Made by a program: the position numbers and the translations under genes. The notes beneath the pieces are model-generated. The model did not search any database and had not been told where the DNA came from. It saw only the letters and a list, made by a program, of their open reading frames with translations. A stretch of DNA of 64,000 nt from Aminobacter anthyllidis (GTDB taxonomy: Bacteria; Pseudomonadota; Alphaproteobacteria; Rhizobiales; Rhizobiaceae): NCBI RefSeq assembly GCF_018555685.1, contig NZ_JAFLWW010000002.1:496001-560000 (forward strand), written 5' to 3'. Positions within the stretch are counted from its first letter, which is position 1. Each line of letters begins with the position of its first letter. Positions 52,063 to 54,670 of this stretch are shown here, in pieces.

Positions 52063-52566
52063 TTATCGCTGCGCGACGACGATTTCGGCGTCGAGCGTCT
52101 TCATGGCGAGCCCGCGCGCAATGCCTTCGGCGTTCGCACCGTTGCGGCCCAGAACCGCTGCCTGCTTCCTGGTGATGACCAGCCCCTGCTCCAGCGCGCG
52201 CGGCCTTGATGTCACGCGCTCCCAGAACGGCCGGTTGCTCGCCCGCGAACGGGTGAAGCGCGCCGCCATCGCCAGCCGGCTCATGTGACGCACCGCATCC
52301 TCGGTCCAGCCCTCGGCCAGCCGCGCTCCCGGTTCGAGCAGCAGCAGCCAGTCGCTCTTCGCCTGCGCGATGCCCGCCTGGATGCCACCCTTGGCGAGAT
52401 AGGCGCAGCCGGCATGTTCGGCGACATAGTGGGTCTGGTCGGCCGAACCGAGGTCGCAGACGATCACCTCGCGCACCACGCCCTCGACGGCGCCGCCGAC
52501 CAGCGAGGCCAGCGTGCGCGCCAGCCCCTCCTCGTCGTCCCTGGTCTCGATCAGAACGCTCAGCAT
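52063..52566 (-). CDS. Glycosyltransferase family 2-like protein
   Basis: The 167-residue protein begins MLSVLIETRDDEEGLARTL and has VVREVIVCDLGSADQTHYVAE and GIQAGIAQAKSDWLLLLEPG. This matches the nucleotide-binding half of GT-A family 2, with an ED/DxD-like acidic stretch, but is short for a full transferase (usually over 220). It may be a reduced form or have a non-transferase role. Start is uncertain (ATG 52566 or 52578). It is convergent with moaB, separated by 2 bases. Confidence 0.65.
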   Translation of the reverse strand: MLSVLIETRDDEEGLARTLASLVGGAVEGVVREVIVCDLGSADQTHYVAEHAGCAYLAKGGIQAGIAQAKSDWLLLLEPGARLAEGWTEDAVRHMSRLAMAARFTRSRASNRPFWERVTSRPRALEQGLVITRKQAAVLGRNGANAEGIARGLAMKTLDAEIVVAQR

Positions 52567-52624
52567 ATCTAGCCGCATATCGGAAAGCCGGCCGAAGCGC
52601 CAGCCTCGCCGCCGGAACAACAAA

Positions 52625-52639
52625 GTTCTTGCTTTGTTC
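52625..52639 (+). promoter_or_regulatory. Candidate alphaproteobacterial LexA (SOS) box
   Basis: GTTCTTGCTTTGTTC matches the alphaproteobacterial LexA consensus GTTC-N7-GTTC exactly. It lies 75 bases before the ATG of the radical SAM gene (52714), a normal place for a LexA operator. It is the only such match I noticed. Confidence 0.65.
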
Positions 52640-52713
52640 TCATTTCCAAAATAGGAATAGTTTCATGCCGAACGAATCGACGGGCGGCCTTTTTCCCTTC
52701 GGGAGATAGCGAA

Positions 52714-53868
52714 ATGGAACCCATCGCACGGGCCGATATTGCCGCTTTCAAGGGTGGCGGGGCCGGAATGGCCAACGCCATGATCGAGGAAAGCGGCCTG
52801 CGCATCAATCATGAGCGCCGGCGCGGCCGTGGCGCCGGCGTCAACCCGTCAGGGCGCTACGAGCCGGTCAGCCGCCACGTCTTCGACGACGGCTGGAGCA
52901 CCATAGAGGAGCTGCCGCCGTTCAAGACCGAGGTTCAGGTCGAAAAGCCGCGCACCATCATCACCCGCAACGAGTCGCCCGACATTTCCTTCGACCGTTC
53001 GATCAATCCCTATCGCGGCTGCGAGCATGGCTGCGTCTACTGTTTCGCCCGCCCCACCCACAGCTATATGGGCCTGTCGGCCGGGCTCGACTTCGAATCC
53101 AAGCTGTTCGCCAAGCCCGACGCCGCCCGCCTGCTCGACCGCGAGTTGTCTAAGGATGGCTACCAGCCGCGCACGATCGCCATCGGCACCAACACCGACC
53201 CCTACCAGCCGATCGAAAAGCACTGGCGCATCATGCGCGAGGTGCTTGAGGTGCTCGAAGCACGCAATCATCCCGTCGGCATCGTCACCAAGTCGGCGAT
53301 GGTCACGCGCGACATCGATATCCTCAGCCGCATGGCCGAGAAGGGCCTGGCCAAGGTGGCGCTGTCGGTGACGACGCTCGACCGCATGCTGGCGCGGACG
53401 ATGGAGCCACGGGCAGCTACGCCCACCAAGCGCCTCGAGGCGATCAGGCAGCTCTCCGATGCCGGCATTCCTGTCTCGGTGATGGTGGCGCCGATCATCC
53501 CCGGCCTCACTGACCAGGAGATCGAGCGCATCCTCGACTCGGCGAAGGCCGCAGGTGCAACCAGCGCCGGCTACGTCATCCTGCGCCTGCCGCTGGAGGT
53601 CAGCCCGATCTTCAAGGACTGGCTGCTGCGCCATTATCCCGACAGCTACCGCCACGTGCTGTCGCTGATCCGCTCGATGCGCGACGGCAAGGACTACGAT
53701 TCGGAGTGGGGCAAGCGCATGAAGGGCAAGGGTCCCTATGCCTGGCAGATCGGCCGTCGCTTCGAGATCGCAGCCCAGCGCCTCGGCCTCAATTCGGTGC
53801 GCACGCCGCTCAGGACCGACCTGTTCGAAGCCGGCCCCAAGGACCAGTTGCAGCTGACGCTGCTTTGA
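52714..53868 (+). CDS. Radical SAM protein, PA0069 family (SplB-like)
   Basis: The 384-residue protein has the radical SAM cluster motif CEHGCVYC near residue 105 in [20 protein letters not shown], plus [15 protein letters not shown] and [15 protein letters not shown]. It resembles the PA0069/Rv2578c group, related to spore photoproduct lyase, but its reaction is not known. GGGAGATAG precedes the ATG by 4 bases. A candidate LexA box upstream suggests a DNA damage role. rnhB follows after a hairpin. Confidence 0.9.
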
Positions 53869-53875
53869 ACATTTT

Positions 53876-53897
53876 GGGCGGACAACCTTGTCCGCCC
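53876..53897 (+). terminator. Hairpin between radical SAM gene and rnhB
   Basis: GGGCGGACAA (53876-53885) pairs with TTGTCCGCCC (53888-53897) with a 2-base spacer. It follows the radical SAM stop by 8 bases. No U-run follows, so termination is likely partial or Rho-linked. Confidence 0.55.
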
Positions 53898-54019: not shown

Positions 54020-54670
54020 ATGGCTCGCCCGCGTTCCGATTCTCCGCCCCTCTTCGAATTCATCGACAAGCCCGACTTCGCCTTCGAAACGAAGGCGATA
54101 TCAGGTGGCTTGTGGCCCTGCGCGGGGCTCGACGAAGCCGGGCGCGGGCCGCTCGCCGGCCCGGTCGTCGCTGCCGCCGTCGTGCTGGACCCCGGCAACA
54201 TTCCCGCGGGTCTCGACGATTCCAAGCGACTCACCGCCGCCCAGCGCGAGGCGCTGTTCGATGAGGTGCTGTCCAAGGCTCTGGGCGTTGCCGTAGCATC
54301 CGTCTCGGCCGACAGCATCGATCGCAGCGATATCCGCAAGGCGAGCCTGGAAGCGATGCGCCGCGCGCTGGCGGGCCTGCCGATGACCGCCAAATCGGCC
54401 CTTGCCGACGGCCGCGACGTGCCGCCTGGTCTTAGCTGCACCTGCCGCGCCCTGGTCAAGGGCGACCAGCGCTCGCAGTCCATCGCCGCCGCCTCGATCG
54501 TTGCCAAGGTGACGCGCGACCGCATGATGTCGGCCTGCGGCTCGAACGACAATCGCTACGGCTTCGAAGTCCATATGGGCTATGCGACCGCCCGCCACCG
54601 GGCGGCGATCGTCGAGCATGGCGCATCGCTTCGCCTGCACCGCATTTCCTTCGCACCGTTCCGGGACTAG
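54020..54670 (+). CDS. rnhB: Ribonuclease HII
   Basis: RNase HII cuts RNA in RNA-DNA hybrids, including single ribonucleotides in DNA. The 216-residue protein has the family signature [21 protein letters not shown] with Asp and Glu, the [12 protein letters not shown] segment, [17 protein letters not shown] and a [13 protein letters not shown]-type C-terminus. I chose ATG 54020, giving normal length; earlier starts lack similarity. The usual DGxxxP motif is DGRDVPPG. Confidence 0.94.

Follow-up and report, generated by a model that had tools for sequence, protein, structure and literature searches.

A conserved LexA box precedes a PA0069-family radical SAM gene in Aminobacter anthyllidis and in most alphaproteobacterial genomes examined

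We analysed a 64,000-nucleotide stretch of Aminobacter anthyllidis DNA (assembly GCF_018555685.1, 6.7 Mb in 30 contigs; contig NZ_JAFLWW010000002.1, positions 496,001 to 560,000 of the forward strand), referred to below as the window. In this window, a gene for a radical S-adenosylmethionine (SAM) protein of the PA0069 family is preceded by an exact LexA operator, or SOS box. We consider it likely that this operator lies over the −35 element of the gene's promoter, that the gene is induced in the SOS response, and that its product, predicted to fold like spore photoproduct lyase, probably targets a damaged base or nucleotide.

The box, GTTCTTGCTTTGTTC, is the single exact occurrence of GTTC-N7-GTTC in the window, with 74 bases between its end (52639) and the ATG (52714). 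A first-pass annotation, made from the letters alone, had reported the box at a distance of 75 bases and cautioned that an eight-base match can arise by chance. The box is present, and the caution was well placed: shuffled windows contained a mean of 1.78 matches, and 80 out of 100 shuffles had at least one. Across the genome, the exact motif occurs 168 times versus 193 for a mirrored control, and the variant whose second GTTC follows a T 37 times versus 44, so the core is not enriched, and the bare match is at chance level and no evidence by itself. A scoring matrix gave the box 32.6 bits versus 6.0 for the next best place in the window, a difference to be read with caution since the matrix was built from promoters of the same radical SAM gene in other genomes.

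The evidence for the operator comes from its conservation. From each other genome, we retrieved 500 bases upstream of the homologous start; the exact box was found in 226 out of 242 distinct alphaproteobacterial genomes, A. anthyllidis included; in 220 of the 226 it lies on the strand of the gene and within 350 bases of the anchor. By group, with strands set by tblastn, it was present in 99/102 genomes of the order, 48/50 of the family, 54/65 of a class draw, and 30/31 further alphaproteobacteria of a phylum draw. Eleven permutations of the 4-mer, arranged in the same way, were found in 0 to 7 of the 102 order genomes, and the exact box preceded none of 30 moaB genes. Upstream of recA, a known SOS gene, it occurred in 19 of 30 genomes, rising to 29 of 30 with up to one mismatch, so that in this small control the radical SAM gene keeps its box at least as faithfully as recA does; one locus of each control, L431 for recA and L483 for moaB, was truncated at a contig end and incorrectly anchored. 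Among named GTDB loci, the best 80 of 595 and overlapping with the 242-genome set, the exact box was found in 75; on Sinorhizobium meliloti pSymB its letters are identical to those in the window, and in Paracoccus denitrificans it reads GTTCTCTAAATGTTC.

The total of 242 comprises 102 order, 50 family, 64 class and 26 phylum genomes after six repeats were dropped (G042 from the class group; G043, G034, G082, G022 and G117 from the phylum group). In the order, 106 genomes had a match, of which G046, G104, G054 and G091, cut or very weak, were left uncounted, and the cut G032 and G037 were kept. The family sample took 50 of 95 matching genomes, the 30 best-scoring and 20 picked down the list, including the sole genome of the same genus. 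The class draw counted 65 of 68 genomes over the cut-off, leaving out the genome under study and assigning G260 and G284 to the phylum group.

Outside the Alphaproteobacteria, the operator changes. LexA of most beta- and gammaproteobacteria reads CTGT-N8-ACAG, and Gram-positive LexA reads GAAC-N4-GTTC (PMC3323433; this and the other papers cited were available in part). In non-alphaproteobacterial genomes of the same phylum, exact CTGT-N8-ACAG preceded the gene in 18 of 26, compared with 0 of 26 for the alphaproteobacterial box and 0 to 1 of 26 for five permuted palindromes. A named gammaproteobacterium, Aeromonas caviae, carries CTGTATATATAAACAG, in a record labelled as a 4.9-Mb plasmid. We also checked four actinobacterial loci of the related Rv2578c family, three assigned by score and one by annotation; the Streptomyces and Nonomuraea loci carry exact GAAC-N4-GTTC near possible starts. 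Operator type thus appears to follow LexA type, the gene mostly carrying the matching motif, and control that outlasts a change of operator argues strongly for function.

These results bear on the simplest alternative, namely that GTTC-N7-GTTC stands here by accident and the gene lies outside LexA control. The chance-level frequency of the bare core in the window and genome would agree with it, but neither the conservation contrasted with permuted motifs and moaB nor the switch of motif along with LexA type would be expected from a coincidence. We reject a chance match on the grounds of box conservation and regard this alternative as having practically no chance of being correct. LexA control, proposed in the first-pass annotation with orthologues named as the place where it could fail, is instead strongly supported by these same orthologous upstream regions. 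Given the frequency of the exact box and its at least recA-like fidelity, the gene is very probably used against DNA damage.

We further aligned 222 distinct alphaproteobacterial upstream regions on the box. The extended form WWTGTTCTTGNTTTGTTCT was preferred. A weak element lies 27 bases on from the start of the box, with T at 65% and A at 72%, followed by G, G, A and T at 40–45%. Seventeen nucleotides separate the TTG within the box spacer from this element, as in a sigma-70-type promoter. Because the TTG resembles a −35 element with a partner at this distance, LexA would cover the −35 and block the promoter. In the mechanism that we propose, LexA bound to the 15-bp operator would exclude RNA polymerase; upon DNA damage, RecA would trigger LexA self-cleavage, and the gene would be expressed together with the other members of the SOS regulon.

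The box also lies in the intergenic region shared with a divergent glycosyltransferase-like gene, which has a match in 55 of the 80 named loci, nearly always in divergent orientation, and the operator could mainly serve this neighbour, or both genes. The box, however, stays before the radical SAM gene where the neighbour was not found (e.g., L405, L386 and L402), and the embedded −35/−10 pattern faces the radical SAM gene. The retention of the box without that neighbour makes the divergent gene unlikely as sole target, and we judge the alternative as a whole very improbable.

The genome encodes a LexA (TIGR00498, 182.3 bits; C1:845618-846328). The window box, at 32.6 bits, ranked third among the own-genome sites ranked, which were loci L001–L051 and L187–L204 of the 168. 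Other sites, scoring 19–34 bits, adjoin genes that best match recA, ssb, ruvC, parE, YifB (the comM product), imuA (below cut-off) and two dinB genes.

The gene product belongs to the PA0069 family, with its NCBIfam match covering positions 1–348 of the 348-position profile at 581.1 bits versus a cut-off of 360; the Pfam Radical_SAM domain was also matched. The second-best family was Rv2578c (NF038135; 231.7 bits, below its cut-off of 430). Among the matches listed, the nearest named records were from Mesorhizobium at 85% identity, although records very near the window may be omitted. In phage records, 14 partial matches at 26–36% identity were found, none covering 80% of the query; these distant relatives (H41–H54, 44–60% of the length) reside in gut phages and Acidianus two-tailed viruses. 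A match to the actinobacterial relative was seen in 15 Bacteroides and 7 Parabacteroides plasmid records.

Among solved structures, spore photoproduct lyase is closest to the predicted fold, ahead of the next structural match by about 4 Z units. With the lyase (TIGR04070; PDB 4fhc to 4rh0) the protein shares this fold, the CX3CX2C cluster motif, a Tyr before the third Cys (Y109, invariant in 83/83 aligned proteins), and the [ST]-D of the catalytic loop. Unlike the lyase, it lacks a cysteine at the catalytic position and lies far under the family cut-off, scoring 19.6 bits versus 400 with TIGR04070; TIGR03886 was not listed for it at E 0.001. The residue at this position is T159, and the 83 aligned proteins contain T in 51, I in 11, A in 8, V in 5, S in 4, G in 3 and M in 1, with Cys in none; no fourth invariant Cys was found among them either. 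Position 159 was equated with the catalytic cysteine, C140 of the solved lyase, by alignment with one lyase-type protein (L489), itself under the TIGR04070 cut-off at 278 bits. A full TIGR03886 member (L488, 616 bits) likewise has no Cys at this alignment position, so the missing cysteine separates PA0069 from the solved lyase and not from all proteins called lyase.

The enzyme could nevertheless be a true spore photoproduct lyase (SplB photolyase), which is how PMC3323433 regarded its splB. The nearest solved fold and the invariant Y109 agree with this assignment; against it stand the score far below the family cut-off, the absence of Cys from position 159 in all 83 proteins and the lack of a fourth invariant Cys, and we find it improbable. 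Of the kinship to spore photoproduct lyase claimed in the first-pass annotation, the predicted fold is thus retained, and membership is not, since the family cut-offs are missed and the catalytic Cys is absent. The label "photolyase" should not be taken as the function of PA0069 proteins: with the hydrogen-returning cysteine absent, the lesion or the radical-quenching route should differ from that of the true lyase.

We propose that the enzyme probably applies a 5'-deoxyadenosyl radical to a damaged base or nucleotide, in line with the "repair or nucleotide enzyme" inferred in the first-pass annotation. An SOS-induced enzyme might instead act on a substrate other than DNA, such as a tRNA, a protein or a nucleotide metabolite. 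This would leave the regulation as described, but the best structural match is to a DNA-acting lyase, by the Z margin given above, and the SOS box is near-universal in the alphaproteobacteria examined; we consider such a substrate unlikely, though worth keeping in mind. A wider proposal, which we offer tentatively and at somewhat less than even confidence, is that PA0069 proteins form a so far unrecognised DNA-repair class of SOS-induced, light-independent radical SAM enzymes that employ a cysteine-free radical route to reverse or process a lesion other than spore photoproduct. They would represent a core SOS function across Proteobacteria that stayed in the regulon as the LexA motif changed, and Rv2578c would be their actinobacterial branch. 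The usual label of the gene points to a reaction for which the enzyme seems unequipped; once its lesion is identified, the SOS response would gain a step of direct repair or nucleotide processing that needs no light.

Together with the lack of genome-wide core enrichment noted above, several observations weigh against an SOS-regulated, lyase-like repair enzyme. The exact box is missing from 16 of the 242 alphaproteobacterial upstream regions (14 of the 16 keep it with one mismatch) and from 8 of the 26 non-alphaproteobacterial ones, and two of the four actinobacterial loci, in Arthrobacter and Tsukamurella, have GAAC-N4-GTTC only with one mismatch. A strict E. coli-type promoter scan found no promoter at the box region. 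In the host genome, the exact site of lexA itself scored just 12.0, and no recognised SOS gene stands beside L050, L048, L037 or L040, four sites that rank among the ten best. Sequence kinship to the lyase is weak: searched against solved sequences, profile A1 had SkfB as its top match (E 0.00024), and up to E 1 no lyase was listed; hhalign comparisons with two lyase-type proteins yielded 12.9% and 87.0%, over the C-terminal part only. Finally, the available main texts on the SOS responses of Caulobacter (PMC12700426) and on Dinoroseobacter (PMC6473078) contain no mention of splB, radical SAM or photoproduct.

SOS control of this type of gene has been predicted before, and the idea is not new. 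In 2012, it was predicted for "splB" in alpha- and betaproteobacteria (PMC3323433): the gene was called a spore photoproduct lyase homologue, and LexA sites were predicted in species sets including S. meliloti, Agrobacterium, Brucella and Burkholderia. We take this splB to be, most likely, the PA0069 family, since the lyase family TIGR03886 occurs in 1 of 121 genomes of the order. The same paper dealt with bacteria that have multiple chromosomes. It named the gene a photolyase and reported no such trait in its gammaproteobacteria, whereas here A. caviae has the box and the cysteine of the lyase is missing. SplB (COG1533) has also been listed among documented SOS genes (PMC8565304, 2021), a radical SAM protein was placed in Gram-positive and Balneolaeota SOS regulons (PMC7739468), and SplB-like proteins were linked to SOS-related operons (PMC3765255). 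The SplB/COG1533 proteins of Bacteroidetes and the radical SAM proteins of Gram-positive and Balneolaeota networks are likewise repeated members of LexA regulons with other motifs (PMC8565304, PMC7739468) and may belong to PA0069, Rv2578c or another COG1533 branch. Rv2578c members of Streptomyces and Nonomuraea resemble the window gene in having an SOS box, there of the Gram-positive type, and differ in family, the window protein falling below the Rv2578c cut-off; this comparison covers the four actinobacterial loci. The available main text of PMC9578287 does not mention splB, photoproduct or radical SAM, nor does the available text of PMC1839093 mention splB or photoproduct, and in the open literature searched we found no paper naming both PA0069 and radical SAM, or both Rv2578c and LexA. 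What the present analysis adds is the extent of conservation within the order and class, one named example from the gammaproteobacteria, the probable overlap of box and promoter, and the evidence for assignment to PA0069, a family without the lyase cysteine.

The features of the locus are collected in Table 1.

Table 1. Features at the radical SAM locus (positions within the window)
Feature	Position	Strand	Basis or remark
LexA operator (SOS box), GTTCTTGCTTTGTTC	52625..52639	+	exact GTTC-N7-GTTC; conservation before orthologues; matrix score
Putative −35 element TTGCTT, inside box	52629..52634	+	preferred position and letters across 222 distinct upstream regions
Putative −10 element TAGGAA	52652..52657	+	17 nt after −35; suggested by letter preference
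PA0069-family radical SAM protein, 384 aa	52714..53868	+	NF033668, 581.1 bits; PF04055
Radical SAM motif C103-x3-C107-x2-C110 (CEHGCVYC)	53020..53043	+	three Cys invariant in 83/83 aligned proteins
Codon of T159, aligned with lyase catalytic cysteine	53188..53190	+	sequence alignment
9-bp hairpin between radical SAM and RNase HII genes	53876..53897	+	no T run
RNase HII gene	54020..54670	+	likely ATG 54020; mechanical open reading frame opens at 53888
Divergent glycosyltransferase-like gene	52063..52623	−	TTG at 52623, or ATG at 52578 or 52566

Upstream of the radical SAM gene lie moaB and the divergent glycosyltransferase-like gene, which is short and matches TIGR04283 at 36 bits (cut-off 182). 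An RNase HII gene follows on the same strand, as the first-pass annotation had stated, and does so in 58 of the 80 named loci, at a varying distance and with some loci cut short. The radical SAM stop and the likely RNase HII ATG are 151 bases apart in the window, and a stable hairpin lies in this interval (60 nt folded at −24.2 kcal/mol, z −3.44); a terminator scan did not list it. A damage response shared by the two genes is possible, but because the spacing varies and the hairpin intervenes, a shared SOS operon is no more than a candidate.

Several other sites of the genome deserve mention. Upstream of lexA (L487, C1:845552-845592), an exact box on the minus strand has one-mismatch copies nearby, and these sites resemble the consensus less than does the box before the radical SAM gene. 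The top-scoring site (L050, C23:607246-607260; 33.7 bits) adjoins a gene that by eye resembles a membrane transporter. At L048/L049 (C23:265226-265251), two overlapping exact boxes have one GTTC in common, and no frame of at least 80 aa was listed just downstream on the plus strand. Another SOS member may follow a GTTCTTGTTCTGTTC site at L042 (C12:572015-572029), where the gene weakly matches RNA 2',3'-cyclic phosphodiesterase, at 31.3 bits and under the cut-off. At L194 and L193 (C26:351868 and C26:351286), some 580 bases separate two LexA-like sites; one stands before ruvC and the other before a small AbrB/MazE-type gene (AbrB domain, 56 bits), which may belong to an SOS-controlled toxin-antitoxin pair.
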